The translations under genes were made by a program, and so were the position numbers. From positions 1 to 46,122 of the IMG/VR virus record IMGVR_UViG_3300035232_001500: a DNA stretch of 46,122 bases. One strand, 5' to 3'. The number at the start of each line of letters is the position of its first letter. Position 1 is the stretch's first letter. A model generated the notes under the pieces. It had not been told where the DNA came from. It was given only the letters and a program-made list of their open reading frames with translations, and ran no database searches. The stretch is from a virus. Below are positions 1-41,170 of the stretch, piece by piece.

Positions 1-3000
1 TTCCTGCTGGTCCAAATAAAGCTCCCATACCAGCCCCCATAAGAACACTAGAGGCTATGTCCCCCCCTCTGTCATTTACATCAAACGATCCTGTAGTTTT
101 ATTAAATGTAGCTCGCTCCGCTCTATCTTGCTTATTTGACACCATGCCAGCAATCATCGGGGCAATAAAAGACATACCTAACCCCATAGTTCCCCCAAAT
201 TTACCAAGACCTTGGGTTCCAAAATTTTTAGCGGCCCTTGTAATACCTCCAGACAACCTCCCTGCCGCACGAGCAGTTCCAGTCCCCAAACCAGAACCTA
301 TAATACCAGCTCCAGATCGACCAGACATAAATGACCCTGTTAATTGATTGCCGAAAATTTTACTAGACAAATTGGCAAGCTTGCCTCCGCCAGTTCCTCC
401 TCTTAGTCTATCTCTTGCCGCTGTTTGTGCAGCTTTAGTATTATCACTTTTAATAGCATTCTTAGCATTATCCTTTGATGTCTGTACCAGCTGCTGTAAT
501 GCTTTCGTTGATTGAGTGTCTTTACCAATTCCTATGGCTCCTGAATTCAAACTTCTTTCTAACCTTTTAGCGGTTTTTTTGTCTCCATTTTCTAGAGCTT
601 TTTGGAATTGACCTAATTTTTTTGTAAATTGATTAGCTGCGAGAGAAGATGTGCCAGCTTGACCACCAACTAACTGCCTGAATTGACCAGATTGCAGCCC
701 AGCTGAAGCAAGAGCTTTATTTGAAGACATTACTCCTTGTTGTTGAAGGTAGTTTTTAAATTCGTTTTGCCCAGTTTTACCCATCATAGCCATTATGCTA
801 TTAGCTTCCCTCTGACCTCCAGAAAAATTTGGATCACGTGCCCTTAAAAAATCTTGCGCAAAAAACTTAGTCGCTGTGCTTTTGTTGAAACCACCTGTTC
901 CTTGAAATTTCTCTCTAGCTCGAATTTCTCCTGAATTTTGTTTCAGAGCTCGCTCTATCATCTTAGCGGACTCCCTGGGTCCACTCATTGCATTCCTGGC
1001 TCCCCTCTCCATTGAGCTGTCTATCTTTCTTAATGCATTTAACGTTTCTGTGTCTCCAGATTTTCTAGCGACACCTTGTTGGAACAATAACGCATCCTCA
1101 AATTTACCCCCAGGAGCATTCATTAAGTTCTTAGCTAAACCTCCCAGAGGTCCTCCACTGGCAGCTATATTCTTTAACTCGTCTTTTCTAAACATTTGTC
1201 TAGCGAATTGGTTTCTCTCGACACCATCTTTGGAGCTTAAGCCTTTGGTTTGAGCTTTTTGCCTGATGTTTGCCTCTTTAATTAAGTTGGCATTTTTTCC
1301 ATACTCTTTAGACAAACCCGCCAAGAATTTTCTACCCCGATCTGTAGAAGCTGTCATCTTGTCTATAGCAGAACTAGCCTTAAAGAAGGAATCCTGCATA
1401 GCCTTTAATCCGTCTTGTCTAATAGCCTGCCTTGTGTCTTGTCGCATTGACATTACATCTGCACCAGTGAGGCTTCTAACTGGCGAAGCATAATTAGGAA
1501 CACCGCTTTTTTGTTTTGGGTTCAATCCTCCATGCAAAATTCTGGCTTTAGCCAAAGAACCACCTTCTTGTTCTTGGTTGACTACAGCAAGACCAGGGTT
1601 GGTTGAGCTTTTTAAAGAAGGAGCTTGTACTACTCTGGGAGTTAACCCAAAAGACGCCTCTCTAGATACTGCATCTTTTACGGCTCCTGAATACTGTGGG
1701 TTTTTTGATAATACTTTAGAGGCTCCTCCCGAAAAAAGACCAGCATAATTAGGAACATGACCTTGGTTTGATATTTTATATGTAAAATTCTCCCCAGCCC
1801 ACATTCCATCTTTTTCACCGATATCTTTGTTGAATTGAAGGTCTTCAGCTTTTTCTACTTTAAATTTCTTCCCCTTAGCTATGCTATCAACAACTCTCAT
1901 TGCAGAAATAGATGTGCCCATGTCTCCATACAACCCAGTGTAGCCATTTTTCTTAGAGTATTGAGCCATATGTTCATACAAATCTTTTCCGTAACCTCTT
2001 CCCCTTAAAGAAGGATTAGCCTCTGAAGTCATTATTACCTGCAATGCTCTTTTGCTTGGGTCTTTAAAGTCGGGGATATCTATAGCATGAGATGTTGCAA
2101 AATTTTTACCACCCACACTGGACTCAAAAAATACCTGCTTAGGAGGTCCGTCCGTATCATCTCTCGACCCATCATCCCTAACCTTGGTTTTATATTTAGC
2201 TGGAGTTCTTGCAAAATTAGGAATAAGACCTTTGCTAGCCATATCTGGATCGACTTTTAAATGCTTTCCTTGAGATACAACGCTTTGAATTTTATCGAGA
2301 TGCAGCCTTCTGTATCCCCCAGCCCCTTTACCAGCTGAAGCTGCATGCACTACCCTGGACTTTCCTAGGGGCGAATTCTTATCAAAATCCGCCCAAGACG
2401 AAAATCCCTTTGGAGCACTCGCTCCTTTTTTGTGAGCATGGACTCCATGCCTTGCTCCTGTAAATGTTAGATCTTGAGCACTTCCTGATTTAGGTTGGTA
2501 TTTTATGGATTTAAATAAACCATTTGTTATGATTTTATCCAGTTCCGACATCCCTATCGTACCATCAAACTTATCGGAATGTATTTTCGCTTTAGGCTTA
2601 GATATAGATTTTATCTTAGAAGCATTTATTCTTAATGCAAAATTAGGGATTTTTCCAAAACTTCGAAATTTTCTTAGTTTTAAAAGTTCTTTCAAAGTAG
2701 GTGTGCTTGAAATCGAGGGAGAGCCACCAAACCTTTCTTTCGCCATTCTCAACAAATCCTTAAGTGTATAGTTTTTGTATATAGAAGGTAGTTCCTGGAT
2801 TTTTTTTGGTAATCCATCGTTTTTATTTAATGACAATAATTCTTCTAATGTAGGAAGGGCGTTTAATTTTGGATTTTTCTTTTCTGTTATTGGCGACTTC
2901 TTTGATAAATTAGTAAAGTTCTTTCCAAAAAGTTTTTTATGACGCTCTTTTCTCTCTCTCATTAACGCATCAATATCGTCACTTTTCTGGAACCTTCCAG

Positions 3001-6000
3001 CCATCATTTTTTCCGCTTGACGTATAGTCTTTTTATCATCCTTAAGATTATCCTCAAAATCTTCAAAAGATCGATTGTTTATTAGGTTTTTAGCTCCAGG
3101 ACTATTTTTTAAAATTTTACTTAATTCTCCCTGCTGGGCGCTCCCAGAAGCAGAAGCTTGTGTGTTTAAGGCTGCCTGGCTTTCAAGATGTCTAGCTTCT
3201 ACTCTTTTTTGAATTTCGGATTGTTTTGCGATGGAAGCGTCGCTCCCTCTGAACCTCCCGCTAGTTTCCCCAAAATAGCCAGGCCCAGTAAGCCCTGGCT
3301 TACTTGTAAATCCACTACCACTCCTATACAGTTGAGCCAGAACTCCAGCCATTGGCCTAGCTTTAACTATACCTCTTTCTGGATCATGCCCAAGTTTTAA
3401 AACATCTCTAGATAACACTTCCATCTGAGTGTTGTTTATTCTATTTTTACTTTTTCTTATAGAGCCTATTTGTTTTTTTATTGTATTAGAAACAGAAGTT
3501 CTTCCAACCATATCCTGAACTACTTGAGACCTTTCTTTATGATCCATTAATCTAACAAAAGAACCAGGAACATTTCCCTGTATCCTGTCGGTATTCCCAG
3601 TTAAATAGTTTAATATATCCCTAGGCGAAGCCTGCCTTAAAACAGAAGCTACATCTGCTTTAGGAGGAGCCCCTACTCCTGATTTAACCATTTCCCAATC
3701 TTGACTTCCCAGTAAACCATTGGCAGTCATAGATTTCTTAACTTCACTTAAACCCTTATTATCTAAATATTTTAAAGCTTCAACAGTTTTTTGTGGGCTA
3801 GCTAGTAGATCATTAAGTTTTGTTGGATCTTTAAATGTTTCATATTTAGCTATTGTAGCTTCATTGTAATTAGCTGGCTGAGCTCTCTGAAGTCCAGATA
3901 GGTATTCCGTACCAATTGGGGTATTTGAAAGTGCATAGTTAGGAATCAAACCTCCATTAAAAAGGTCCTTCAAGCTCCAGGTTAATTCCAGATCAGCGGC
4001 TTCCTTTAAATCTATTTTCTTTTTGGCTAATTCGTCTCTTATATCATCATGAAACCTCCCCATATACGTAGATCCATCTTTCGTGACAACAGCCGCTCTG
4101 TAATCTCCCCCGAACCTTACCGAATCAATCTTATTACCCTTCATATCGAAAAGTTTTGACATTCCAGGTGTTTCGTATGGTTTGGCTGCAGAATCCAAAG
4201 CTCCCCTTTTCAATATAAAACTTTTTAATTTTGATGCTTGTCTTGATTGAGACGGATTCATCTTGTTTCTCGCATGCATAACCATTTGTTCTGGCCTAAA
4301 CATCATATTAGGAATAAATCCATCTGACATACCGAGTTCATCCAATATTGATTTCGGAACAAAAGATGTTTCGTTCCCATATCTAGGATTAGCTTTCATT
4401 CTTCCAATAGCTATTCTTTGCAAGTCTCCAGGAAGATCTGAAACTTTTAAATTAGTCCTAGTCTTTCCTTTGTTTTTTAACTCTTGCCCTACTTTATTTG
4501 ATTTTTCTTGTTTCCTCATCCTAAGAATATCATCTAATAATGTAGAACCTAATACAGAGACTGGGATAATTCCACCAAGCACGCCAGATATTAAATCTAT
4601 ATGACTTGTTGGATTCTGAAATATATCTAAAGCTCCTTTACCTAGCTTACCTCCCATTTCAAGAGCTTTGGGTCCGTATTTTTGAATAGCATTCATTATT
4701 TCATCTTTAAATGCAAATCCTGCTCCTCCACCGCCACCATATAAAGTTGTGCGAGGAAAGTTTTTCATAAAATCAAAACCTTTTCCTAAAAGATGCTTAC
4801 CTGTTTCAAAAATATTGGTATATGCATTATATCCTCCTTTAGCGGCTCCAAGTATACCCTTTCCTAAGAAATCAGTGCCTTTCATGTATGCACCATACCC
4901 ACCTTTTATCAAAGAGCCTATATCTTTAAAAGGTGTGCTTATTAATTTTCCTGCGGCACCGAGGCCCTTACCCATAAAGTCTCTGTCTGATGTTTTGGGC
5001 TTCTGCCTTCTAAAAAGATTACCAAGTCCGTAATTCGGAACATGCCCGTGGCTCATAGCTCCGCCCATAAACGGATCCCTTTCAGGCCCCAGCTCTCTTC
5101 CTGGAGGCAACTTATGGGGGCTACTTAATCCCCTTGACTGAGCTCTTTTCATATTTAAATCAAAAAGCATTCCGTCAATATACCCGCTCCCTCTAGACCA
5201 GCCAGATGGAACATTATTGCCGAAACCAGCTAAAGAGTCTTCGACTTGTTTTATAAATGTCGAATCTTTTTTAGATAGAAATTTTTTGTAAACAAGTGTT
5301 CTTATAGAATCTAGTTCTGTGCTCGTAGCTAAAGCGGGCTTTGATGAGTGCCATGAATCTTTTAAAACACGGCCTCCTCCAGTATCAAGATTTAGAGCTC
5401 TTCTTTTCCCGTGAACCAAAGCTGATGCTATATTATGAGGGGTAGGTTTGTATGATGAGATTTTACGTGCTCTATTGTAATTTGGAACATAACCTCTGTT
5501 TGCATAAGGATCCATTCCGTGAACATTGGAAAATGCTTTTCTGTATTTTCTTCCAGCTCTACTTGACTCAGGCGGCATAATTGCTGGCTGTGATAACCCA
5601 CTAAACTTCTTAACAGTTTCAGCTGAATTAAAAATAACTCGACCTTCTCCTTTAAGATTCATGCTTTTAACCGCTCCAGCCGTATAACCTCCTTGCCTAG
5701 CTCCTTTTTTCTCACTAGAACGCTCCGAGCTTGATACATAATTGGGAATATGACCATCGCTCTTTCTCCTCAAGTCCCCGCCAAACCCAGCACGAGATAT
5801 TCCTGGGGACATAGCTCTAGCTGCTGCTGCTATTTTTGCCTGCTCTCTTGATTGTTGCTGTAATATATTTAAAATAGTTTTTTCTTGAGCTGCTCTGTTT
5901 CCTTCTTGAGAAAGTATTCTTTTTTGTAAAGCACTATTTTCATTTAATACAGTTACTATAGAAGCTTGTATTTGTTTTTGTTTTTCAGCCGCCGTAACAA

Positions 6001-7372
6001 CCCCTAAAAGCTCTTTTCCGCTACCAGCAAGAAAAGAAAATGTTTTTACAAATAATTTCGACAACACAGCTAATGTTAAAAATAAACCTGGGCCAGTTAA
6101 TACATTCCCTATTCCCGCTATAACACCTTTTGCGAAATCTGACCCCGCTGACTCTCCTTGTTTCTGACCCAAGAAATCTGATATTCCACTAACTTGATCT
6201 TTTATAAAAGTTAAATAATCACGTATTTGGTCTGCGAAAGCTATTTCACCAAGAGCTCCAGCAAGTTCTTTTAGGCTAGTCGCTGCTTGAGAGGATAACG
6301 CGGCTAGTGACCTATTTAAAATTTCATTCTTTTTGTATGCTTCATCTGTTGCGCTGGCTGATATTTGAGTAGCTCTACTTAATATACTATTTTCAGAACT
6401 TAAATCTTTTATCGCAGCTTTTAATATGTTTATTTGAAACACTCCACCAACTTGTTCTGCTACTGCGGCTTTCGTTGTGTCTGCCAATTTATCGTAAGTT
6501 TTAGCTAAGTTTTGTAAAACATTAATTGCTGGTAATGTATTTCCAGATATATCTCTTACCGCTATACCTAACTCTTCTAATCTTGTTATAGTGCTAGACC
6601 TTTGAACTCTTGTGAAAATTGTTTTAAAACTATTACCTATTACCTTTCCCCCTCTAGCAGTCATTTGTTGAGCCGCCGTAACCGCACCCAAAAGTTCATC
6701 AAAACTTACTCCAGCATCGCTCGCAACAGCTCCAGCTCTAGAAACTGCATCTATTAAATCTTCCGTACTTACCGCAAACTGAACGTCAACAGCGGCCATT
6801 TTGCTTAAAATTTGAGTGGAGTCTAATCCAACATTATTAAAAGTATTTAATGCTGCAGTCAAACCGCTTACTGCGGCTGCGGCATCCAAACCTGTTAATC
6901 GTGTTAATATTAATGCGTCATTCGCTCTTTTTAATGTTTCTTCGACTCCCAGACCCTGTCTTGCGAGTTCTGTTGCCGCTGTAGCTACCGTGTCAAAGCT
7001 TTGTGCTGTATTCTTTGCTACTTTAAATAAACTTTTACCAAAATCTTCTAATTGGGAATTGGTTAACCCCATGACGACATTTATTTCAGTTAGCTTTTGT
7101 TCTACCTGTATAGTCGTTGTTACTAGAGAGGCAAAAGCCTTTTGGACCGCCTGTATAATACCTACAGAAGCTCCAAACGCTAAAACACGAGCATTGGACG
7201 CTTCTAGTGATTTATTAAATTCACTAACGGATCCAGTTATCTTACCTAAGGGTCTAGAAAAATTCCTATCATTTATCGACAGATTAAGCCCTCCCCTAGA
7301 ACTTACGTTTCTAACGGCTCTTTTTATGGACTTTTCTAGCCCTGTCTGAACTGTTGGTATCTTGAGAGGCAT
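1..7372 (-). CDS. Tail tape-measure protein with accessory domains (partial)
   Basis: Sets tail length and is probably ejected with the DNA. I translated nearly all of the reverse strand from ATG 7372 to the window edge and found no stop, so at least 2457 residues are present and the C terminus is missing. AAGGA lies just upstream of the ATG. Residues about 40-340 resemble the TP901-type tape-measure core (for example ATAATELARQGLGVEET and DAGVSFDELLGAVTAAQQ). A hydrophobic segment near residues 405-430 could cross a membrane. From residue 540 on, a heptad-length motif such as GLIPNFA recurs nine times. Between copies seven and eight (residues about 1747-1839) lies a GNAT-like domain with LRGRGYGKDLY at 1789-1799. 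The C-terminal part is rich in Gly, Ala, Lys and Gln, with Gly/Met-rich hydrophobic stretches near the edge. The first gene downstream of the major tail protein is the usual place for a tape measure. Confidence 0.9.
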   Translation of the reverse strand, partial: MPLKIPTVQTGLEKSIKRAVRNVSSRGGLNLSINDRNFSRPLGKITGSVSEFNKSLEASNARVLAFGASVGIIQAVQKAFASLVTTTIQVEQKLTEINVVMGLTNSQLEDFGKSLFKVAKNTAQSFDTVATAATELARQGLGVEETLKRANDALILTRLTGLDAAAAVSGLTAALNTFNNVGLDSTQILSKMAAVDVQFAVSTEDLIDAVSRAGAVASDAGVSFDELLGAVTAAQQMTARGGKVIGNSFKTIFTRVQRSSTITRLEELGIAVRDISGNTLPAINVLQNLAKTYDKLADTTKAAVAEQVGGVFQINILKAAIKDLSSENSILSRATQISASATDEAYKKNEILNRSLAALSSQAATSLKELAGALGEIAFADQIRDYLTFIKDQVSGISDFLGQKQGESAGSDFAKGVIAGIGNVLTGPGLFLTLAVLSKLFVKTFSFLAGSGKELLGVVTAAEKQKQIQASIVTVLNENSALQKRILSQEGNRAAQEKTILNILQQQSREQAKIAAAARAMSPGISRAGFGGDLRRKSDGHIPNYVSSSERSSEKKGARQGGYTAGAVKSMNLKGEGRVIFNSAETVKKFSGLSQPAIMPPESSRAGRKYRKAFSNVHGMDPYANRGYVPNYNRARKISSYKPTPHNIASALVHGKRRALNLDTGGGRVLKDSWHSSKPALATSTELDSIRTLVYKKFLSKKDSTFIKQVEDSLAGFGNNVPSGWSRGSGYIDGMLFDLNMKRAQSRGLSSPHKLPPGRELGPERDPFMGGAMSHGHVPNYGLGNLFRRQKPKTSDRDFMGKGLGAAGKLISTPFKDIGSLIKGGYGAYMKGTDFLGKGILGAAKGGYNAYTNIFETGKHLLGKGFDFMKNFPRTTLYGGGGGAGFAFKDEIMNAIQKYGPKALEMGGKLGKGALDIFQNPTSHIDLISGVLGGIIPVSVLGSTLLDDILRMRKQEKSNKVGQELKNKGKTRTNLKVSDLPGDLQRIAIGRMKANPRYGNETSFVPKSILDELGMSDGFIPNMMFRPEQMVMHARNKMNPSQSRQASKLKSFILKRGALDSAAKPYETPGMSKLFDMKGNKIDSVRFGGDYRAAVVTKDGSTYMGRFHDDIRDELAKKKIDLKEAADLELTWSLKDLFNGGLIPNYALSNTPIGTEYLSGLQRAQPANYNEATIAKYETFKDPTKLNDLLASPQKTVEALKYLDNKGLSEVKKSMTANGLLGSQDWEMVKSGVGAPPKADVASVLRQASPRDILNYLTGNTDRIQGNVPGSFVRLMDHKERSQVVQDMVGRTSVSNTIKKQIGSIRKSKNRINNTQMEVLSRDVLKLGHDPERGIVKARPMAGVLAQLYRSGSGFTSKPGLTGPGYFGETSGRFRGSDASIAKQSEIQKRVEARHLESQAALNTQASASGSAQQGELSKILKNSPGAKNLINNRSFEDFEDNLKDDKKTIRQAEKMMAGRFQKSDDIDALMRERKERHKKLFGKNFTNLSKKSPITEKKNPKLNALPTLEELLSLNKNDGLPKKIQELPSIYKNYTLKDLLRMAKERFGGSPSISSTPTLKELLKLRKFRSFGKIPNFALRINASKIKSISKPKAKIHSDKFDGTIGMSELDKIITNGLFKSIKYQPKSGSAQDLTFTGARHGVHAHKKGASAPKGFSSWADFDKNSPLGKSRVVHAASAGKGAGGYRRLHLDKIQSVVSQGKHLKVDPDMASKGLIPNFARTPAKYKTKVRDDGSRDDTDGPPKQVFFESSVGGKNFATSHAIDIPDFKDPSKRALQVIMTSEANPSLRGRGYGKDLYEHMAQYSKKNGYTGLYGDMGTSISAMRVVDSIAKGKKFKVEKAEDLQFNKDIGEKDGMWAGENFTYKISNQGHVPNYAGLFSGGASKVLSKNPQYSGAVKDAVSREASFGLTPRVVQAPSLKSSTNPGLAVVNQEQEGGSLAKARILHGGLNPKQKSGVPNYASPVRSLTGADVMSMRQDTRQAIRQDGLKAMQDSFFKASSAIDKMTASTDRGRKFLAGLSKEYGKNANLIKEANIRQKAQTKGLSSKDGVERNQFARQMFRKDELKNIAASGGPLGGLAKNLMNAPGGKFEDALLFQQGVARKSGDTETLNALRKIDSSMERGARNAMSGPRESAKMIERALKQNSGEIRAREKFQGTGGFNKSTATKFFAQDFLRARDPNFSGGQREANSIMAMMGKTGQNEFKNYLQQQGVMSSNKALASAGLQSGQFRQLVGGQAGTSSLAANQFTKKLGQFQKALENGDKKTAKRLERSLNSGAIGIGKDTQSTKALQQLVQTSKDNAKNAIKSDNTKAAQTAARDRLRGGTGGGKLANLSSKIFGNQLTGSFMSGRSGAGIIGSGLGTGTARAAGRLSGGITRAAKNFGTQGLGKFGGTMGLGMSFIAPMIAGMVSNKQDRAERATFNKTTGSFDVNDRGGDIASSVLMGAGMGALFGPAG
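1487..5755 (-). repeat. Nine G-x-[IV]-P-N-[YF]-A motifs inside the tape measure
   Basis: Translated copies, in protein order: GHIPNYV (5735-5755), GYVPNYN (5474-5494), GHVPNYG (5027-5047), GFIPNMM (4301-4321), GLIPNYA (3932-3952), GKIPNFA (2636-2656), GLIPNFA (2210-2230), GHVPNYA (1742-1762) and GVPNYA (1487-1504). They start at residues 540, 627, 776, 1018, 1141, 1573, 1715, 1871 and 1957. Flanking residues are not conserved and spacing is irregular, so these look like boundary or linker elements between separate small domains, not a structural repeat array. From memory, similar motifs occur in tape measures of other environmental phages, but I cannot check this here. Confidence 0.85.
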
Positions 7373-13468: not shown

Positions 13469-14251
13469 TTATTTTTTAAAATTTATATTTTTATTATAAA
13501 GCCAAGCGTTTTGTTTCTGCAATGGATCTAGGTTTTGATTATACACTGTAATATTATTTGCTTTGCCTAGGTATGCCATCCAATAACTAAAGCTTCCAGC
13601 AGAAAGTATCAGGTTGTCAAATTGTGTTGCAAATAAAATAGTGTTAATTGGATCGTTTTGATAAATTGTGAGATCGTATTTTTTTATCAATTCTGTGAGT
13701 GGGGGATGGTTAATAGTGTCAGAAGTTATATAAACATTGTCATATAATTCACGAAAAGAAATTAGTTCTTTTTCGATGTAATTCATTGAGCAATACGTTC
13801 GACTTACTTTATTTTTAAGCAAAGTATCTCCCAGTCTACATGAAATAAAAACATCATTGACATTAGGGCTAAAACTTAATTCAGGCAGTTTATATAAATT
13901 TAAAATTTCTTTTCTATAATTAACTAGCAATTTTTCGTGCTGAAAATACCCAGTTAAATGGTAACCTGTACTAGGTTTTTGACCATCGAGACACTTAAAA
14001 TATTCGACATCATTAAGTTTTATTATTTTTTCATTCTCAAGCCCATTTAAAGGTTGAATTTTAAATACATCTCCAAAATCAACTTCAATATCAGTTAGAT
14101 CGCTTGAGCTTGTTTTATACAGAAAAGTGTTATTATATTTTATATTAGGAACTGTTTTTAATTCCAAACCAGTCTTTTTGGCTAAGACATATGCAGCCGC
14201 ATATTGTATTAGGTTGTTTCCCAGCCTTCCCGCATATTTAACTGTAATCAT
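13469..14251 (-). CDS. GT11-like fucosyltransferase
   Basis: A 260-residue predicted glycosyltransferase of the alpha-1,2-fucosyltransferase (GT11) type, which moves fucose from GDP-fucose to a sugar acceptor. Three family motifs are visible: the N-terminal GRLGNNLIQYAAAYVLAK (family GGLGNQMFQYA), ISCRLGD near the middle (family HVRRGD), and LSAGSFSYWMAYLG (family SNSTFSWWAAWL). The second motif is degenerate, with CRLGD in place of RRGD, so specificity or activity may differ. The length is near normal for bacterial GT11 enzymes. ATG overlaps the preceding stop as ATGA, so it is the last gene of the glycan cassette and is probably co-translated with the exostosin-like gene. Confidence 0.75.
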   Translation of the reverse strand: MITVKYAGRLGNNLIQYAAAYVLAKKTGLELKTVPNIKYNNTFLYKTSSSDLTDIEVDFGDVFKIQPLNGLENEKIIKLNDVEYFKCLDGQKPSTGYHLTGYFQHEKLLVNYRKEILNLYKLPELSFSPNVNDVFISCRLGDTLLKNKVSRTYCSMNYIEKELISFRELYDNVYITSDTINHPPLTELIKKYDLTIYQNDPINTILFATQFDNLILSAGSFSYWMAYLGKANNITVYNQNLDPLQKQNAWLYNKNINFKK

Positions 14252-15264
14252 AATTTACCAGGCAGCCCTTTGAGGTCTAAAACATCAGAGCAGATAAATT
14301 TACCATCAATCTTATTTGTGTCAAAATTATTCTTGTAGAGGTTTAAGCATTTTCCCCATATAAATTCTGAAGCGCCAAAGGGGCAAGGGCGATCAAAAAA
14401 CGTTTTATATAATTTTCTGATATTTGATTTCATTTGCAGCACCCTATCTTTGTCGTCAAGCAATTTACATACTTGCTCGTGAATATGATCCATTGTTTGT
14501 GTTCGAATATCAAAACGCAAAAAATAATCATCGACATTTTTAATAATATTTTCCCAGCCAAAATCGTTCATGCTTGAAATCATTACAGGTATACATCCCG
14601 CTCTAATTACATCGTAGAAACTACTTGCCCACGGACGATCTCCACGTAGAATATATACTATATCTTTACAACACAATTCTTTCATATAATAATCAAATTG
14701 TTCGGGTGTGGACTGATTCTTATATATATTGAGTTTAAAAGCCTCGATATTAAATCTCAAATCATCGATGTTTTTATAAAAATTGTAAATTTCTTTTCGT
14801 GAGAAATGGGTGTCTAATGAGCCTTTCCAGAAAACTTTATTATGAAAAACATTATTTTTTGGCAACCTGTCCTTGGTCCAATAAAGTTGTGGTTTTTTTA
14901 AATTTTCAAAATGTGTAGGTCCACCGAACACAGGTATTATATTATTTTTTTTATGAAAATCATAATTAGAAAACATTATATTTTTTATTTGATGATAAGG
15001 CAGATCTATACAATTATCTACATTGTAGTTTTTCCTTAGGTTTAAACCCTCTCTCACTCTCATTCCTTGAAAGCGAATGTCTATTACATGATTCGGATTA
15101 TTGTGATAGAAATTTAAATTGTCGATGTATTCAGACCAGCCCAACCCTGAGAATACCAAGTCTGCTTCATCTTGATTTTTTAATGATTTTACAAACTCAA
15201 TGTCTTCGTAAAATAAATCTTCAACATAGCTTTTATCTAACCCATTAATTATCGAAATCTTCAC
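14248..15264 (-). CDS. Exostosin-like (GT47-type) glycosyltransferase
   Basis: About 338 residues from GTG 15264, which lies 8 bases after the preceding stop and downstream of GGAGG. An in-frame upstream GTG (15300) would begin MFRLQIWR, but those codons are the 3' end of the sulfotransferase read in another frame, so I reject it. The C-terminal half has the exostosin signature: YILRGDRPWASSFYDVIRAG followed by CIPVMISSMNDFGWENII, the nucleotide-sugar binding part of this GT-B family. A cysteine-containing C-terminal region follows. The acceptor is unknown. It lies between a sulfotransferase and a fucosyltransferase, which fits assembly of a decorated glycan. Confidence 0.7.
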   Translation of the reverse strand: MKISIINGLDKSYVEDLFYEDIEFVKSLKNQDEADLVFSGLGWSEYIDNLNFYHNNPNHVIDIRFQGMRVREGLNLRKNYNVDNCIDLPYHQIKNIMFSNYDFHKKNNIIPVFGGPTHFENLKKPQLYWTKDRLPKNNVFHNKVFWKGSLDTHFSRKEIYNFYKNIDDLRFNIEAFKLNIYKNQSTPEQFDYYMKELCCKDIVYILRGDRPWASSFYDVIRAGCIPVMISSMNDFGWENIIKNVDDYFLRFDIRTQTMDHIHEQVCKLLDDKDRVLQMKSNIRKLYKTFFDRPCPFGASEFIWGKCLNLYKNNFDTNKIDGKFICSDVLDLKGLPGKL

Positions 15265-15272
15265 AAGACACT

Positions 15273-15929
15273 TTACCCTCCAAATTTGTAACCGAAACAC
15301 TCGATGTCTTTAGCGTATCGTTCCGCAACAATCTCACGAGTTTCGTCGTCATAGTATTCAGTATAGTGTTTGTGTTTTGATTTATTTTTGTGTGGAAGTT
15401 GTTGTTGAGGGATTCCAATTTTGTCGCAGATTGTATTAAAGTCTTCTTGGAGGGTTTCCATCTTGCCAATAAAATTAACATGATTTTTTTGAGCAACAAA
15501 GTAGGATTGTGGCAATATATGATAGCCAATAATTCCATTGTCATGAAATGGATAGTTTAAGTTTGGAAAATTAACTTGTAAACCTGTTTCGTTATTTGCC
15601 ATTTCTTTATAAATTTTTTCTGTTCCTAAATCCATAAATTCACAAACTTTATTAAAAAAACATTTAAAGCTCATAGAATTGTGAATAGACTCAAAAAAGT
15701 GATATACAGATACAATTTTGCTATAAGGATTACGAGAAAAGGTAAAAGTATAATAGTCAGGATACTCCTCAATAATATTAAATAACTCTTTATTTCTGTA
15801 ACATTTATTTCTCTTTGCCCAACGACTCCCGAATGAATCTGAAGCATGTTGAAATAAGGTGTTTTCAATCGTTGTCCCACCTGCTTTGGGTATATGTATA
15901 AAAATAAATTTATGCTTGTGACTTATCAT
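15273..15929 (-). CDS. Sulfotransferase (PF03567-like)
   Basis: About 218 residues from ATG 15929 (MISHKHKFIFIHIPKAGG). An earlier ATG exists at 15986, but the chosen start overlaps the preceding gene by only 20 bases, with AAGG upstream. The enzyme should move sulfate from PAPS to a sugar hydroxyl. The 5'-phosphosulfate loop is FIHIPKAGGTTIE near the N terminus, and the 3'-phosphate segment is FSRNPYSKIVSVYHF. HFIGKMETL-type residues (FIGKMETLQEDF) and the C-terminal ECFGYKFGG are also typical. The last 31 codons are nearly identical in DNA to those of the sulfotransferase at 16659-17234, while the rest of the two proteins is widely diverged. Confidence 0.8.
   Translation of the reverse strand: MISHKHKFIFIHIPKAGGTTIENTLFQHASDSFGSRWAKRNKCYRNKELFNIIEEYPDYYTFTFSRNPYSKIVSVYHFFESIHNSMSFKCFFNKVCEFMDLGTEKIYKEMANNETGLQVNFPNLNYPFHDNGIIGYHILPQSYFVAQKNHVNFIGKMETLQEDFNTICDKIGIPQQQLPHKNKSKHKHYTEYYDDETREIVAERYAKDIECFGYKFGG
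15278..15371. repeat. 94-bp direct repeat, copy A (sulfotransferase 3' end)
   Basis: Ninety-four bases that match 16667-16760 with only 3 mismatches, in the same orientation, 1389 bases apart. They encode the C-terminal residues HYTEYYDDETREIVAERYAK and DIECFGYKFG in both genes. Two of the differences are silent third-position changes, which points to recent exchange plus coding constraint. Confidence 0.95.
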
Positions 15930-16656
15930 TATAAATGTAACCTTTGAATTCATTACGAAGGACTTTAAGCTTATTTTCAGTTCCAACCCCTGTGAGAGGA
16001 AGGTGCACCACTTTACTACCTTTGACCATTTTCCCTCTATGAATAAGACTTCTAGATATGCCCAATACCTTAAGTTGATATTTATGTAAGTCTAAAACAA
16101 AAGAATGTCCATCAACAGTTTTATCGATTTTTTTGTTTATTGAATATAAGAATTCATTAAACCTTCGTTGATCATTTCCCTCCTTAAATGAGTAATACTG
16201 GCCAATAAAATCTAAAATGAAAGATCGACAAGATTTAGAAAATCCCATCCACCCAGTACAGATGGTCATTCCCCACTTTTTCCTTACCGAAGCAGGATAA
16301 GCATTTGGATTATGTACGGTGGATACATGAGCATTATATGAATCATTAAAGATATCTTCCAAAGGATCTTCTAACCAAATCGCATCTATATCAGAATAAA
16401 TAACATAATCATACTGGTCAAGCAACTGTTCAAGTATATTAAATCTAACTAAACCAAATTGTGTAAAATCAAAGTCATCTTGAGATAACTCACCGTAAAA
16501 ATCACATTTTATATTTTTGTCTGTTAAGTAATCAAAACTTTTTTTATCTGTACAATATACTGTATAATCAAGATCTAACTTCTGCATGTAACGAGACCAA
16601 TATTCGGCCATGTCAACATATTTAAAATTTGTATAACCAAATATTTTATAATTCAT
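15910..16656 (-). CDS. Glycosyltransferase, nucleotide-diphospho-sugar type (DxD)
   Basis: About 248 residues from ATG 16656, with GGAG 11 bases upstream and 2 bases after the preceding stop. A longer frame starting MFRLQIWR at 16689 is again the sulfotransferase end read out of frame. The core YVIYSDIDAIWLEDPL carries the DxD motif that binds metal and nucleotide sugar in GT-A enzymes, and the overall pattern resembles the PF03407 group. The later segment TICTGWMGFSKSCRSFILDF fits the acceptor side. It sits between two sulfotransferases, in the same operon. The sugar donor and acceptor cannot be read from the sequence. Confidence 0.7.
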   Translation of the reverse strand: MNYKIFGYTNFKYVDMAEYWSRYMQKLDLDYTVYCTDKKSFDYLTDKNIKCDFYGELSQDDFDFTQFGLVRFNILEQLLDQYDYVIYSDIDAIWLEDPLEDIFNDSYNAHVSTVHNPNAYPASVRKKWGMTICTGWMGFSKSCRSFILDFIGQYYSFKEGNDQRRFNEFLYSINKKIDKTVDGHSFVLDLHKYQLKVLGISRSLIHRGKMVKGSKVVHLPLTGVGTENKLKVLRNEFKGYIYNDKSQA

Positions 16657-16658
16657 TA

Positions 16659-17234
16659 TCAATATTCTCCAAATTTGTAACCGAAACACTCGATGTCTTT
16701 AGCGTATCGTTCCGCAACAATTTCACGAGTTTCGTCGTCATAGTATTCGGTGTAGTGTTTTTTAAACCCTAGGGAGTCTTTGGCTTGAATTTGTTTCAGT
16801 CTCAAAAGTGGATCTATTGTTAAACCTGTTTTTTCTTTAATTAATTCTATAGTTTTTTTTCTATTATTAAATTCGCCTACATGATTAAGGTCGCTTCTAT
16901 TAATGTAGTCACAACATGTAACTCCATGTTCCCAAGATATAGGCTGATAATGATCAAGGAAGTGTTTCAAGGATTTACCCGCAAGACAACCTATCTTGCG
17001 AAATGCGAGAGATTTATATAAAGATATGACTATGTCGTATGGATTTCGTGTCATAGAGAACTTAAAATAATCATTCCACTTCTTTTCACCAATGGATTGA
17101 TGCAATTGTAATGCATTAGAATGTTTTTCAATCCCCTTATATCTTGACATGTGATTTTCCATAAAACTCTCAATCGACGTTCCAGAAGTTCTAGGGATAT
17201 GAACAAAAATAATTTTATTAAAATCGTCTATCAT
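16659..17234 (-). CDS. Sulfotransferase (PF03567-like)
   Basis: A 191-residue protein starting MIDDFNKIIFVHIPRTSGTS. FVHIPRTSGTSIE is the PAPS 5'-phosphosulfate loop, with Arg in place of the commoner Lys. FSMTRNPYDIVISLYKSL is the 3'-phosphate segment, and LNHVGEFNNRKKTIELI is the usual later helix. It is short for the family but has all the key parts. The C terminus is shared almost base for base with the sulfotransferase at 15273-15929. It lies 17 bases after the preceding gene and 2 bases before the next start. It probably sulfates the glycan built by neighbouring glycosyltransferases. Confidence 0.8.
   Translation of the reverse strand: MIDDFNKIIFVHIPRTSGTSIESFMENHMSRYKGIEKHSNALQLHQSIGEKKWNDYFKFSMTRNPYDIVISLYKSLAFRKIGCLAGKSLKHFLDHYQPISWEHGVTCCDYINRSDLNHVGEFNNRKKTIELIKEKTGLTIDPLLRLKQIQAKDSLGFKKHYTEYYDDETREIVAERYAKDIECFGYKFGEY
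16667..16760. repeat. 94-bp direct repeat, copy B (sulfotransferase 3' end)
   Basis: Partner of the repeat at 15278-15371. Three mismatches in 94 bases. The repeat starts 8 bases before the stop codon of this gene (on the plus strand) and ends where the two proteins diverge. Confidence 0.95.
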
Positions 17235-22019: not shown

Positions 22020-22032
22020 TTAGTATTTAATT
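22020..22032 (-). promoter_or_regulatory. T4-late-like promoter box before the decoration gene
   Basis: The minus strand reads AATTAAATACTAA, the same 13 bases as at 9229-9241, ending 5 bases before ATG 22014. The box overlaps the last codons and stop (TAC TAA) of the protease-scaffold gene. A start 6-7 bases after TTAAATA would give a nearly leaderless mRNA. Confidence 0.5.
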
Positions 22033-23660
22033 GTTATAGATTCTTTAGAGAAAGCATTTTTGAATTGATCTTTAAGGGAAACTTCTTTATCTATCGAGTC
22101 TCCGTTATTTGATGTAATTTCTTCGTTAGCCTCTACATTTTCGAGGACTTCTTCGACTTCTTCGCTAGAAGAGGTTTCTTCTACTTGTTCGGAAGCATTA
22201 ATAGGATTTTCGGAAGAAGTTAGTCTTTTTTGAATTTCAGCTTCTAGTTTTTCAGCAAAAACTTTTTCTTGCTCTTCTAGATTTTTTTTGCTTTTATGAC
22301 TAAACAATACTTTCATCTTTTCAGAAAACGAAGCAAAACTCTCGTCTGTTTCATCTAGCTTGTTTAAGTCTTCTACTAAAATTGATCTATCTTGATCGGA
22401 CAATTCGTATTCCGAATCAATAGAGTCCATTCTATCATTGAAGATCTGAAGTTTTCTAGATTCAGCTACATCAGCTTCTATCTTAGAAAGTTTGTCTTGC
22501 GATTCCGCCAAGTTAGCTTCTAGATCAGAAATCTTTTGTTCGGATTCAGCTTTAGCTTCTTCCGCTTGAAGTTTTTGTTTTTCGGTTTCGGCTTTTTCCT
22601 GCACGTAAATGTCGCTCTTTTCCTTGATGGCATCAGTGACAACTTTTACTATATTAGCAACAGCTTCTTCCGAGAACTTATCAGAAGCAGATGCTTCGAT
22701 AGTTTCTTTGAGTTCGTTAATTATTTCTTTAATTTCCATTTTCTGTATGTCTGAATTTAGTTTGGCGTTGTCTGAAATTACAGCTTGTTTTGCATTATGT
22801 GAAGGTTTTTTTTTGTTTTTTATTATTTTTTTTAAAAAATCCTCTGTATTTACTTCTATTTTTTCCACACCTTCAGAGGGGTTTTCTAGGGTTTCAACCT
22901 TTTCTTCCTGGTCTTTTTTTTTATTTTCTAGTTTAATTAACCCTGATACATTAGCCGCAGGATTCGTTGTGAAACCTATTCCTAAAGGATATACATCACC
23001 CGAAACAAGTCTGTAAATTTCAGTACCATCATTCATCAACCCATCTCCATCAAATGCTTTCAAGTATTTTTTTAATTCATTTATATGCTTTTGGTCTGAA
23101 ATTATTTCCGCTTCTTCTAAGTTTTTACTACCCACAGCTATCAAAAAATCATTGAAGCCTATTTCCCAGCTAGCAGAAATTGCATTATATAATGAGTTGT
23201 TTGCGTCTGTAGATTTTTCTATTAAATCTGCAAAGTCAGGATTTACTGTTTTGTATATAACAGATGATAGTGCTATATTAAAAGGCTCTAAAGAGTTTAT
23301 ATCTTCTTTGTCTAAAATATTATTAGATCCATATGTTGAGAAACCAGAGGACACAACATGACCAACAACTTTTTCTTTTTTATGTTCTATGTTAGTAGGC
23401 TTATGAGTAAAATAGGAACTTACAGCTTTTGCTGTGTCTGTAGATATTCCATCATGATTTTTATTAAAAACGTTTACTACCGCAGCATTAAAAGCTACTG
23501 CGATTAAATCTACATTAGCATCAAGATCCATTTCTTCTGGAAGTAGGGATCTTAAGCTTTCTAGAGAAGCTTTGGATAAATCTAACTGATCCTTCGGAAT
23601 ATTTGAGGATGCCGTGATTTCATTAGCAAAGCTTGTTTTGTATTTATATGGTATCGCCAT
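22020..23660 (-). CDS. Prohead protease fused to a scaffold
   Basis: A 546-residue protein. Residues 1-245 look like the prohead protease of marine phages. NIEHKKEKVVGHVVSSGF (His93) and ISASWEIGFNDFLIAVGS (Ser164 in S-W-E) are likely catalytic segments. The order His then Ser matches this protease group, but the third residue of the triad is not certain. Residues 290-450 form a long coiled coil rich in Glu, Lys, Leu and Ala, typical of a scaffold. The C terminus is acidic (SEEVEEVLENVEANEE). The likely job is to guide capsid assembly and then cleave scaffold and capsid proteins. It lies between the portal and decoration genes, as expected. Confidence 0.75.
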   Translation of the reverse strand: MAIPYKYKTSFANEITASSNIPKDQLDLSKASLESLRSLLPEEMDLDANVDLIAVAFNAAVVNVFNKNHDGISTDTAKAVSSYFTHKPTNIEHKKEKVVGHVVSSGFSTYGSNNILDKEDINSLEPFNIALSSVIYKTVNPDFADLIEKSTDANNSLYNAISASWEIGFNDFLIAVGSKNLEEAEIISDQKHINELKKYLKAFDGDGLMNDGTEIYRLVSGDVYPLGIGFTTNPAANVSGLIKLENKKKDQEEKVETLENPSEGVEKIEVNTEDFLKKIIKNKKKPSHNAKQAVISDNAKLNSDIQKMEIKEIINELKETIEASASDKFSEEAVANIVKVVTDAIKEKSDIYVQEKAETEKQKLQAEEAKAESEQKISDLEANLAESQDKLSKIEADVAESRKLQIFNDRMDSIDSEYELSDQDRSILVEDLNKLDETDESFASFSEKMKVLFSHKSKKNLEEQEKVFAEKLEAEIQKRLTSSENPINASEQVEETSSSEEVEEVLENVEANEEITSNNGDSIDKEVSLKDQFKNAFSKESITIKY

Positions 23661-23674
23661 ACTTTATGTATACA

Positions 23675-25672
23675 CTAACTACGTTCTTTTTGAGAATGAT
23701 ATAAAAGTGCGGCTGGATATAATTCAAGTTGATGAGAACCAGATATTTCGGTAATTTCTTTTAGCACAGATAAGTTTTCTATTTTTTCCGCATCTTTAAT
23801 GCATGCGTTCGCTGATCTTTTCCATATTTTTTTATCTTTAGACATAACTATAGACTCGCACAGGTTCTGACATATTTTTAGCTGATTATCATTTAATTCT
23901 TTTGTTACATATTTCTTTTTTAATGTAGCTTCTATATAAGATCTAAAATCTTCAACTTTATATACAATTTCTTGTATTTCTTTTCTGGAATATAATTCAG
24001 ACGCATTTACACTTCTTGGTATTCCCGTTGTCCCTTTAGGTCTCCCAACTGGCCTTCCGCTGCTTTTTGGTCCAGAAGTCCCGCCCTCATCTTTAGTAGA
24101 CACGGTATCTACTTCTCCATCACCATCAACATCAATCATAGGAATTCCGCCTACTAAAGGATTATACATACCCTCTTTTCTTTTCTCTAAATATCTTTCT
24201 TGAGCTGACTCTATATCTCCTGTATCAGGATAGATCCCCGTTTTAATTGTCTCGATACCTTGTTGAGGGGTCAGTATTCCCATTTCTATTAATCGAGTTA
24301 CAACTCTTTGCAATTGAACTTCATCTTTTATATCTATCTCTTCGAATTTTGCTGTTGGGTATTTTTTAAATCCCATAGCTTTACAAACCATTTTGATTTG
24401 AGGCTGTAAGAAGTTATGAACGAATGATTGTCTAGCTTCTTTTAATCTTTCCAAGAATATCTCAGCTTTAACTTGGGTATTTTTATATTTTTCATCTCCT
24501 ACGATTACATTTTGAAGCCCTTGTCTTATATCTTCGTTTACTATTTGATATTTTTCTGGGCCGATAACCTTGCCTATATCTGGCAATATAAATTCTGCCT
24601 TGGTTGTATAATCTGCGACTAGAACCCTGCCCACACTTTCATTTTGGAAAAGGGACTGCATGGCTTCTAGGTTATTGGGATTTACCCCTCCTTTGTCTGG
24701 GTCTGTACCCATGGTAATTAATAGTATTACATTTTCAATAGTTCTGCTTATAGCCTGATCTACTTTTTTCAATTCGATCTTCCAGTTAATATCATCCAAA
24801 ACTGGAAACCCGAATGGTATTGCGAAAGGTTCATAATCTTGTTTTTTATAAAAAGCATGGCAAAGTTTTGACGGATCAAGATCCATAGAAACACCATCCA
24901 TAGACCAACCCCCTTCTTTTATTTTTTTCTTAACCTCTTCTGGCAGCCCGTCAAATATTTGTTTATCTTCTTCTGTTTTCGGGTTTTGGAGTCTTTCTAA
25001 TTCATATTCTGACAATATTTTTTTATAAATATTATTGTTATATGAAGTGCTTCTTGATGCAATTATGTCGTATGGATTTAATAATATATATCTTATTGGG
25101 AGCTGGTTTGGTTTTAAGAAATTCTCAGAGCCATATACTTTATTTAGTCTAGAGAAATCTTCTACAGAAAATTTTCCATCTAACCTGTAAAGAAAAACAT
25201 TTCCACTTCTATAATATTCTCTAAAAAATTGATCTTTTAAATTCCATAAATTTATTTTAGAAAACCATTTCTCAATAAATACTCTTGATGACTCATTACC
25301 CCCATCAACATATATTGGAGAATTTGCTAGTTCAGCCATTATGTCAATAGCATTTCTGAATATAGGAACATTCGCATATGCTTTTTGACAAAGCTCTATA
25401 GTATCTCTTACGTTTACACCTTCGGATGAAACTTGATAAGGCAAAAGCCCTTGTCTTATATTGGAGTATCTACTTGTTTTTGTAGAGCTTGATATGCTAT
25501 TTCTTCTTCTTGAAGTCGTTCCTGTTCCACCACTTGATACTGACGCATTGGAGACATAATAACTTTCCCCTGCAGATGTTGGATTAAAACCAATATCTTT
25601 TGATATTGGCTTGTCTGTTTTTGAGTCAAACTTATTCCAGTACGAAGCTTTTTTTGTATATTTTCTTTTCAT
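23675..25672 (-). CDS. Portal protein
   Basis: A 665-residue portal, the dodecameric channel at one head vertex through which DNA is packaged. After a Ser/Thr-rich disordered N terminus (residues 1-75), the core holds typical portal pieces: IELCQKAYANVPIFRNAIDI, FFREYYRSGNVFLYRLDGKF, LLNPYDIIASRSTSY, and an ISRTIENVILLITMGTDPDK segment. The stem and crown region includes FLERLKEARQSFVHNFLQPQ. The Asp/Gly-rich stretch MIDVDGDGEVDTVS near residue 545 looks like a calcium-binding loop, which is unusual for a portal. The C terminus (residues 600-660) is helical. It is the first gene of the head operon, with tandem palindromes upstream. Confidence 0.85.
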   Translation of the reverse strand: MKRKYTKKASYWNKFDSKTDKPISKDIGFNPTSAGESYYVSNASVSSGGTGTTSRRRNSISSSTKTSRYSNIRQGLLPYQVSSEGVNVRDTIELCQKAYANVPIFRNAIDIMAELANSPIYVDGGNESSRVFIEKWFSKINLWNLKDQFFREYYRSGNVFLYRLDGKFSVEDFSRLNKVYGSENFLKPNQLPIRYILLNPYDIIASRSTSYNNNIYKKILSEYELERLQNPKTEEDKQIFDGLPEEVKKKIKEGGWSMDGVSMDLDPSKLCHAFYKKQDYEPFAIPFGFPVLDDINWKIELKKVDQAISRTIENVILLITMGTDPDKGGVNPNNLEAMQSLFQNESVGRVLVADYTTKAEFILPDIGKVIGPEKYQIVNEDIRQGLQNVIVGDEKYKNTQVKAEIFLERLKEARQSFVHNFLQPQIKMVCKAMGFKKYPTAKFEEIDIKDEVQLQRVVTRLIEMGILTPQQGIETIKTGIYPDTGDIESAQERYLEKRKEGMYNPLVGGIPMIDVDGDGEVDTVSTKDEGGTSGPKSSGRPVGRPKGTTGIPRSVNASELYSRKEIQEIVYKVEDFRSYIEATLKKKYVTKELNDNQLKICQNLCESIVMSKDKKIWKRSANACIKDAEKIENLSVLKEITEISGSHQLELYPAALLYHSQKERS

Positions 25673-25710
25673 GGCTATACAATATAGTACACCATGCCAA
25701 GAAAAAGTCT

Positions 25711-25742
25711 AAAGTTAACTTTGCACTTTCAAAGTTAACTTT
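25711..25742. promoter_or_regulatory. Tandem palindromes, operator-like, before the portal gene
   Basis: AAAGTTAACTTT occurs at 25711-25722 and again at 25731-25742. Each is a perfect 12-bp palindrome. They are 20 bp apart, two DNA turns, so dimers would sit on the same face. A half-site (AAAGTTAA) follows at 25768-25775. The pair lies 39 bases before the portal ATG (25672) on the minus strand. TACTATATTGTATAG between them could hold the -10. A repressor or activator site for the head operon is the simplest reading. I see no candidate binding protein in the window. Confidence 0.6.
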
Positions 25743-25770
25743 GAATGAGGTAATCGACGAAAAGCGAAAG

Positions 25771-26700
25771 TTAATCAATATAATTTTCTTTGAAAGAATC
25801 GGCGTGGTATAATTTTCGTACTTTATTCCAATCTACATTTTTAAATTTTTCTTCGTATTTTTTTTCTAATAACTCTTGGGTTACATCTTGCCATTTATCC
25901 ACAATTAAGAACGGCAAGCCATAGGAAGATAAATCATGATATACTGGATGATTAGTTACCACAGGAATAATTCCCATTAAATGTGACTCTTGCAATTTTG
26001 GAGTTTGTATCCCCGCCCCTAAAGGGCACAGAAAATATTTATAGTTAGATATTGTATTGTAATATTCTGTTGGTTTACAATTTATTAAATCAACTACATT
26101 TTGTTTTTTTAAAAAATTTAATAAATCGCGCCTGTCTTTTATAGATTTACTTAAACATGGCCATTTACTGCCAAAGCCACTTGCTGCTAGTTTCTTTCTT
26201 GGATTATCCTGATTGTTTATTACCTTTAGTGTGTCTTTTAATCCATTCCTGATCAAATATGCATGTGTGGCTCCCATTGGCAAAGACTTAACATATTCAC
26301 AATTAATATCTTTAGCTTCGTAATATATCTTATTAAATTTATCTTTTATTTTGTCAATCCAACCTATATTGCGTGATAATCGAATATCGCTCCCAAAAAC
26401 AAAAAGTTTATTATATTTTTTTGTGATTTCGCCTGACAACGACTCTAGGCAACTAGGATTACATAAAACATTTCCCTTTAAATTTTCATTAAATTTAATT
26501 CCTGTTTTGTCAATTATTATTTCAAATAAATTGTGGAATTCTGGGCGGGTTTTCAAAAGATCAAATTTCTCCGATTCGGAACCTTTTGCTTGGAGTGTTT
26601 CTTCTCTCCAATCTTTTGATTTTATATAATTTTTAGGATCATACCTGTATCCAATTATATCATGAGCCCCATTAAACTGAATGTGATTTGAAATAATCAA
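25771..26700 (-). CDS. Exostosin-like glycosyltransferase
   Basis: About 310 residues. No ATG fits the start. A TTG at 26700 overlaps the preceding stop as TTGA, with AGGAA 10 bases upstream, and gives IISNHIQFNGAHDIIGY. An in-frame TTG at 26721 is also possible. The C-terminal half has the GT-B donor-binding pattern of the exostosin group: YKYFLCPLGAGIQTPKLQES, then HLMGIIPVVTNHPVYHDL and LPFLIVDKWQDVT. This resembles capsular or LPS-type glycosyltransferases. It is the second such enzyme in the window, separate from 14248-15264. Coupling to the protease gene suggests both are made together late. The acceptor is unknown. Confidence 0.65.
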   Translation of the reverse strand: MIISNHIQFNGAHDIIGYRYDPKNYIKSKDWREETLQAKGSESEKFDLLKTRPEFHNLFEIIIDKTGIKFNENLKGNVLCNPSCLESLSGEITKKYNKLFVFGSDIRLSRNIGWIDKIKDKFNKIYYEAKDINCEYVKSLPMGATHAYLIRNGLKDTLKVINNQDNPRKKLAASGFGSKWPCLSKSIKDRRDLLNFLKKQNVVDLINCKPTEYYNTISNYKYFLCPLGAGIQTPKLQESHLMGIIPVVTNHPVYHDLSSYGLPFLIVDKWQDVTQELLEKKYEEKFKNVDWNKVRKLYHADSFKENYID

Positions 26701-40785: not shown

Positions 40786-41170
40786 AGAACTAACAAAACA
40801 AAAAGAAAATCAGGAGAAAATTATATGGTCTCTTGATTTGATGGTTAACCTGTTTAACTGTAGTGATTTTGCTTTTGAAGAAAAAGTAATACAACAATTA
40901 GCTCAGGAATTAGGCGAAAAAGTGGATGAAGGAGGCGAGGTTGTTGGAATTGTTAATGAGTTTGGCAAACACGAAGAAGCAATGCATGGTTTAAGATTGA
41001 TTCACGAAACACAAAATGCTTTAATAACCGCTCATTTTGTTAATAAAACTAAAAATATATATTTGAACATCCACTCTTGTGCTGGCTATAGACCTAGCGA
41101 AGTTATAGCTTTAATCGTCGAGAAAGTGAAGCCAGGAAGCTATTCTTGTCAAAAGGTTTTTAGAGATTAA
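40757..41170 (+). CDS. S-adenosylmethionine-decarboxylase-like protein
   Basis: A 137-residue protein resembling phage SpeD-like proteins: SLDLMVNLFNCSDF near the N terminus, then IHETQNALITAHFVNKTKNI and YLNIHSCAGYRPSEVIALI. Ordinary AdoMet decarboxylases cleave themselves at a Ser (L-S-E-S-H) to form the pyruvoyl group. Here the equivalent stretch reads ETQNALITAHF with no Ser, so activity as a self-processing decarboxylase is doubtful. It overlaps the nuclease gene by 29 bases and the terminase by one. It could be a remnant, or a binding or AdoMet-related protein with a changed role. Confidence 0.6.
   Translation: MKEQLIKPSEELTKQKENQEKIIWSLDLMVNLFNCSDFAFEEKVIQQLAQELGEKVDEGGEVVGIVNEFGKHEEAMHGLRLIHETQNALITAHFVNKTKNIYLNIHSCAGYRPSEVIALIVEKVKPGSYSCQKVFRD

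Follow-up and report, generated by a model that had tools for sequence, protein, structure and literature searches.

The stretch analysed here, called the window throughout, is the 46,122 nucleotides of the IMG/VR virus record IMGVR_UViG_3300035232_001500. An open reading frame (ORF) of 2457 amino acids (aa) on its minus strand runs off the contig end and is left open there, and the complete protein of 4138 aa is encoded on a second contig, L002, which represents the same phage. The conserved N-terminal domain and the very long ORF identify the predicted product as a phage tape measure protein (TMP), and its division into modules at a short repeated motif is the subject of this report. Eleven PHROG TMP families were matched by the ORF (best 9.5e-48), and a PF10145 match at residues 117-310 (E 2e-24) bears out the TP901-like N terminus proposed in an initial annotation made from the sequence alone. 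That annotation also gave the protein a single hydrophobic segment, which was not upheld, as segments were found at residues 417-435 and 925-943 (the latter inside the interval 776-1018) and two more lie in the C-terminal half outside the window.

The window TMP contains nine copies of [IV]PN[YFM] (Table 1), and no further motif occurs beyond residue 1956 in the complete protein. The initial annotation had placed nine copies of the longer form G-x-[IV]-P-N-[YF]-A at these residues; the nine positions stand for [IV]PN[YFM], but only four copies have the full form, three others match without the last A (7/9 for GxIVPN[YF]) and two are degenerate (GFIPNMM, SGVPNYA). Same-composition shuffles gave an expectation of 0.0035 copies of GxIVPN[YF] against the seven observed and, over 2000 shuffles, 0.037 copies of [IV]PN[YFM] (maximum 2) against the nine observed, while the window protein has ten PN dipeptides, of which nine fall within the motif. 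Over 190 copies the consensus is [SN]-x-G-[FLH]-[IV]-P-N-[FY]-A, in which G reaches 92% and the P and N are set by the search pattern itself. The coding pattern of the motif occurs six times in a 163-kb relative and eight times in a 180-kb relative, every copy within the TMP, with no matches outside the TMP and none in the reversed control of these two genomes.

A protein scan of IMG/VR returned 14 loci at 72-100% identity, several of them near-identical. Nearly all sequences are metagenomic contigs of uncultured phages. The relatives' TMPs are 3304-4258 aa long where complete and have 6-12 motifs each. When the TMPs were cut at the motifs and the pieces clustered (12 TMPs in the initial module comparison), a fixed frame was seen, which consists of the N-terminal part, a motif, module C2 (87 aa), a motif, variable cassettes, a motif, module C0a (85 aa), a motif and the C-terminal part. 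One to about nine cassettes lie between C2 and C0a, and their order, presence and copy number differ among relatives with a nearly constant backbone, such that close relatives are several hundred cassette residues apart on a 75-90% identical N terminus. On both sides, common cassette clusters occur next to several different neighbours. Counting the N-terminal part as piece 0, the cassette M4, assigned below to the GNAT fold, is piece 7 in the window phage and piece 2, 3, 4 and 5 in L004, L005, L006 and L007, respectively. The TMP of L023 harbors two M7 copies (95% identity) and two M3 copies (57%), the second M3 being nearer to the copy in L022, and the extra copies have therefore arisen by duplication as well as by import.

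To locate the borders of exchange, every seam pair in 17 TMPs was compared and sorted by the homology of the flanking modules. Where only the left modules are related, identity stays at about 0.45 up to residue -2 of the motif and is at background from +7; where homology is confined to the right modules, identity stays at background up to -4 and climbs within the motif. The same borders are seen in DNA. Between the window and L023, a 490-bp block (92%) corresponds to the GNAT cassette and a 436-bp block (88%) to M3, both ending 1-6 codons from motifs on both sides, and the two blocks adjoin in the window but are distant and in opposite order in L023. Within the cassette zone, 63 of 87 DNA block ends lie at most 8 residues from a motif against 10.2 expected, a count that draws on non-independent pairs and takes in the constant C0a. 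Identity also shifts from module to module: the window TMP and that of L003, its closest backbone relative, share 92% in the N-terminal and 76% in the C-terminal part but 44% in M8 and 58% in M3, the L023 protein shares 75% in the N-terminal part but 88% in both M3 and the GNAT cassette, and that of L027 shares 31% in the C-terminal part but 83% in M8.

These sequence comparisons strongly confirm that the TMP is a mosaic whose cassettes are swapped, reordered and duplicated exactly at the motifs, and the proposal of the initial annotation that the motifs divide a mosaic tape measure is thereby sustained. Chimeric assembly is unlikely as the sole cause of the mosaicism because the same cassettes are found again and again, in many contigs and within long uninterrupted ORFs, though single cases may be chimeric.

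Homology blocks that end at the motif would also fit a motif that is chiefly a recombination seam, that is, a short conserved DNA stretch guiding exchange without a protein function of its own. A common stretch of 18-21 nt would aid homology-directed exchange, and a slight excess of ATT, GTT and CCT codons inside the motif is in line with this. Among the 190 copies, however, motif codons differ even within one phage and their usage resembles that of the remaining gene, which indicates selection at the protein level; the motif is also retained at the two constant seams, and its conservation as protein around a P-N core indicates that it functions in the protein. We regard a mere DNA seam as very unlikely, and the codon variation speaks against motif conservation being due to a DNA-level recombination site alone.

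Table 1. Modules and motifs of the tape measure protein in the window
Feature	Window positions	Strand	Remarks
TMP, 2457 aa in window	2..7372	-	Cut at contig end, complete in L002
Constant N-terminal part, residues 1-539	5756..7372	-	PhageMin_Tail; hydrophobic 417-435; 76-90% identity among relatives
Motif 1 GHIPNYV, residue 540	5735..5755	-	
Constant module C2, residues 540-626	5495..5755	-	After first motif in 12/12 TMPs initially compared, most others too
Motif 2 GYVPNYN, residue 627	5474..5494	-	
Cassette M6, residues 627-775	5048..5494	-	Found in 8 TMPs
Motif 3 GHVPNYG, residue 776	5027..5047	-	
Cassette M9, residues 776-1017	4322..5047	-	Glycine-rich, hydrophobic 925-943; possible membrane cassette
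Motif 4 GFIPNMM, degenerate, residue 1018	4301..4321	-	
Cassette M8, residues 1018-1140	3953..4321	-	83% identity to L027 copy, 44% to L003
Motif 5 GLIPNYA, residue 1141	3932..3952	-	
Cassette M2, residues 1141-1572	2657..3952	-	289-473 aa in relatives; in 12/12 TMPs initially compared
Motif 6 GKIPNFA, residue 1573	2636..2656	-	
Cassette M3, residues 1573-1714	2231..2656	-	Beta-rich in model; 88% identity to L023, 58% to L003
Motif 7 GLIPNFA, residue 1715	2210..2230	-	pLDDT <50 in model
Cassette M4, residues 1715-1870	1763..2230	-	Predicted GNAT-fold acetyltransferase domain, acetyl-CoA loop RGRGYG
Motif 8 GHVPNYA, residue 1871	1742..1762	-	pLDDT <50 in model
Constant module C0a, residues 1871-1955	1508..1762	-	Final module before C-terminal part in nearly all TMPs
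Motif 9 SGVPNYA, residue 1956	1487..1507	-	Last motif; C-terminal part starts
C-terminal part, first 502 residues (2183 aa in L002)	2..1507	-	

A scan of IMG/VR DNA for GFIPNFA found at least 120 stretches, and among the matches listed, 104 of 120 contained a long ORF with at least two motifs. Of these ORFs, again among the matches listed, all 57 in which the first motif is preceded by at least 400 aa match a hidden Markov model of the window TMP N terminus, and the motif is therefore a hallmark of one TMP lineage. At least 138 TMP-like ORFs yielded at least 465 cassettes in at least 112 clusters, three of which are constant modules and about 109 cassette clusters. The constant modules C2 and C0a had no match in 50,697 phage records (tblastn), so the system is unseen in cultured phages; Microcystis phage MaeS has a TMP-like ORF without a motif of this kind. 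Literature searches on the motif and on effector cassettes carried by phage tape measures returned no match. The TMP cassette system is thus real, widespread and undescribed within the literature searchable.

As for the host, the only genome match of the first scan was a contig binned in a Neomarinimicrobiota metagenome-assembled genome, and module C2 occurs in 2 of 199 Neomarinimicrobiota genomes, which is a weak hint of a host in this phylum, short of proof. TMP relatives L103 (10001-11620) and L225 lie on contigs binned in genomes of the phylum.

Structure models were made for window residues 1560-1990 and for one cassette of cluster 2, the commonest cassette. In the former (mean predicted local distance difference test score, pLDDT, 69; predicted template-modelling score 0.44), M3, the GNAT cassette and C0a fold separately, the last three motifs fall in segments of pLDDT <50 (model residues 153-162, 312-318 and 379-409) and the first sits in the low-confidence N-terminal end. 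The cluster 2 model (pLDDT 82) shows a compact domain whose ends, at the motif, are disordered. As modelled, the motifs lie in flexible linkers between folded modules. A continuous coiled coil, which the initial annotation had named as incompatible with its linker idea, is ruled out for the intervals modelled, both models showing compact globular domains with the motifs in low-confidence linkers. Its suggestion that each interval is a separate small domain agrees with the globular shape of those modelled, and intervals of the same family recur across phages, which a single sequence could not reveal.

An acetyltransferase identity was found for cassette M4 of the window. Its six-member alignment has a conserved loop RG[KR]GYG, which fits R/Q-x-x-G-x-G/A, and a search against PDB profiles gave five weak matches, all of them acetyltransferases. 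Foldseek of the model returned 39 PDB matches at E<=1e-3, nearly all acetyltransferases, and Pfam matches of the family were sub-threshold (best 0.0018). The predicted fold confirms residues 1715-1870 as a GNAT acetyltransferase domain.

Other enzyme domains were identified among the cassettes of relatives. A staphylococcal-type nuclease (SNase) cassette scores above the Pfam cut-off (2e-9) and aligns with a PDB thermonuclease across the whole domain (1e-6), its catalytic-type residues being invariant, and a P-loop NTPase cassette (1.4e-6) has P-loop residues conserved within its cluster. A nucleotidyltransferase-associated domain is likewise above the Pfam cut-off (3e-8), two further GNAT cassettes are at or above it (7e-5), and GHKL ATPase (4e-5) and PGDYG (3e-5) cassettes fall just under it. 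Ratios of nonsynonymous to synonymous substitution (dN/dS) between close cassette copies are mostly 0.10-0.35, and the cassettes are therefore under purifying selection. Profiles of M3, M5, M6 and M10 found no solved relative.

In the commonest cassette, cluster 2, residues E277, D302, K346 and K360 are conserved in 97-100% of members. An invariant E...D...[DE]xK...K signature is present in clusters 2, 4 and 20 and at L064:10247-11056. A PD-(D/E)XK nuclease was considered for the three clusters, which have the residue signature, but fold searches of cluster 2 (PDB, BFVD) were negative, and the commonest cassette is therefore not classed as a nuclease. Judging from its model, cluster 2 may represent either a new fold or a nuclease that has diverged very far. 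Kinase-like and HAD-like cassettes, noted by eye for conserved active-site-like residues, were unsupported by profile search against PDB, and ART-like and zincin-like cassettes seen by eye are left as suggestions without significant support. Visual inspection of the cassettes picked out a few with HExxH-like motifs, with no significant peptidase match. One cassette (L150:4886-6166, minus strand) seems to fuse a P-loop segment, recognized by eye, with a HIGH-type nucleotidyltransferase. M9 (window 4322-5047) and M13 (L007:12746-13675, L023:9023-9634) are glycine-rich, hydrophobic and glycine-zipper-like, and the shuffled cassettes thus include possibly membrane-active segments.

The cassettes could also be structural, tuning tail length, stiffness or TMP packing or forming a tolerated decoration in which enzyme-like folds serve as bulk. 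They are located within a tape measure, TMP length tracks tail length in other phages (PMC11126660), many have no recognisable function, and the hydrophobic M9 and M13 could belong to a membrane channel. We nevertheless find this unlikely, as the modelled cassettes are globular and not long helices, conservation within clusters extends to the SNase and P-loop residues and to the acetyl-CoA loop of the GNAT cassettes, and differences of hundreds of residues on a 75-90% identical N terminus would imply very different tail lengths.

There is little probability that the cassettes are virion-borne cell-envelope tools for entry, acting in periplasm or wall and not as cytoplasmic effectors. The Pfam matches listed for 109 cassette representatives include no peptidoglycan-hydrolase domain, and enzymes acting on acetyl-CoA, NTP and nucleic acids need cytoplasmic substrates, although TMPs with wall-hydrolase motifs exist (mycobacteriophage TM4, as summarized in PMC13277306) and the few cassettes in which HExxH zincin-like motifs were noted by eye could have their site of action outside the cytoplasm.

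We hold it somewhat probable that the TMP is a chassis whose cargo domains form a polymorphic array and are brought into the host. The N-terminal 540 residues, C2, C0a and the C-terminal part would form a constant structural tape measure, and cassettes are gained, lost, duplicated and reordered through recombination at the motif seams. Packed in the tail tube, the TMP would exit before or with the DNA, and a changeable effector set would enter the cell, aimed at host functions or defences. The enzyme domains in the cassettes and the purifying selection on them lend strong but indirect support to such delivered effectors, which the initial annotation had suggested. We infer delivery by analogy with TMP ejection and with the TMP-derived effectors that act in contractile injection systems; at infection, tape measures exit the tail and are thought to help form a membrane pore (PMC8718954).

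Several points weigh against the chassis proposal. Cassette entry into the cell and activity there are argued from these parallels, no protease or partner of the motif was identified, and all the phages are uncultured metagenomic contigs whose tails and hosts are unseen. The tube lumen, at roughly 40 angstrom, is tight for folded domains of 100-300 aa (PMC8718954). Most cassette clusters, including M2, M3, M6 and M8 of the window, are without an identified fold, and for the commonest one the model (cluster 2, pLDDT 82) had no counterpart in PDB or BFVD.

If the TMP is such a chassis, the motif may be recognized by one conserved partner, most likely either a protease by which the cassettes are released or a chaperone or tube site involved in their handling. 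Cleavage at the motif is put forward tentatively, and docking or chaperone handling with equal reserve. A general class of multi-effector delivery TMPs across a broad uncultured phage lineage, integron-like protein arrays in which S-x-G-F-I-P-N-F-A would be both the seam and a universal processing site that sets free every imported cassette in the host cytoplasm, is a doubtful extension.

Elsewhere in the window, genes were found for a sulfotransferase (43032-43643, plus strand; Sulfotransfer_2, 2e-12), a nucleotide-diphospho-sugar transferase (15910-16689, minus strand; 1e-7) and an exostosin-like GT47 protein (14248-15300, minus strand; 2e-7, just under the cut-off), which suggests glycan or surface modification as a predicted function. 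A T4-type large terminase subunit is encoded at 41170-43035 (plus strand; PF03237). Large ORFs of 546-976 aa occupy 22020-29627 and 32391-35000 on the minus strand; those at 22020-23660, 23675-25672, 26697-29627 and 32391-35000 had no PHROG family at 0.001, and two of the large ORFs searched against Pfam gave no matches.

Whether tape measures bring functional cargo into cells is a long-standing question, and sequence does not readily reveal the phage proteins at work within the first minutes of infection. The motif is a syntactic signature of exact domain borders, which makes it possible to delimit candidate early-acting proteins in silico by the hundred.

The TMP cassette system is akin to polymorphic toxins, polyvalent proteins and TMP-derived effectors. 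Polymorphic toxins (CdiA, Rhs, MIX effectors) combine a constant carrier, a short conserved boundary motif and recombining toxin domains. The window TMP and its relatives share this design, in that variable domains on a conserved carrier are swapped at a fixed motif, but polymorphic toxins usually have a single C-terminal toxin with an immunity gene, whereas the TMPs have an internal array of many cassettes.

Polyvalent proteins are phage and conjugative-element proteins proposed to be injected with DNA and split by proteolysis (Iyer et al. 2017, PMC5512222). They resemble the TMPs described here in being very long and multidomain, with GNAT, kinase, ART, peptidase and nuclease domains (PMC5512222), and polypeptides of the TMP lineage likewise combine several enzyme domains (GNAT, SNase, P-loop, nucleotidyltransferase, GHKL). 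The main text on polyvalent proteins, however, has neither tape measures nor a linker motif (PMC5512222), whereas here the carrier is a TMP and the same motif stands at every seam.

Further parallels are Tme, a TMP-derived effector with an endonuclease domain in a contractile injection system (PMC11126660), and Sle1, a TMP-related effector with exchangeable functional domains, which is reprogrammed by domain swap (PMC13277306). In both, a TMP-like carrier loaded into a phage-tail-type particle bears a domain that is enzymatic or can be exchanged, but they have one C-terminal domain and belong to bacterial injection systems, whereas several internal motif-bounded cassettes are found here in phage TMPs. 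Mycobacteriophage tape measures also have an extra functional domain inside the TMP (Piuri and Hatfull 2006, as cited in PMC13277306); as described in that citing work, these are cell-wall hydrolase motifs, unlike the motif-delimited, shuffled array of intracellular-type enzymes in the TMPs of the window lineage.

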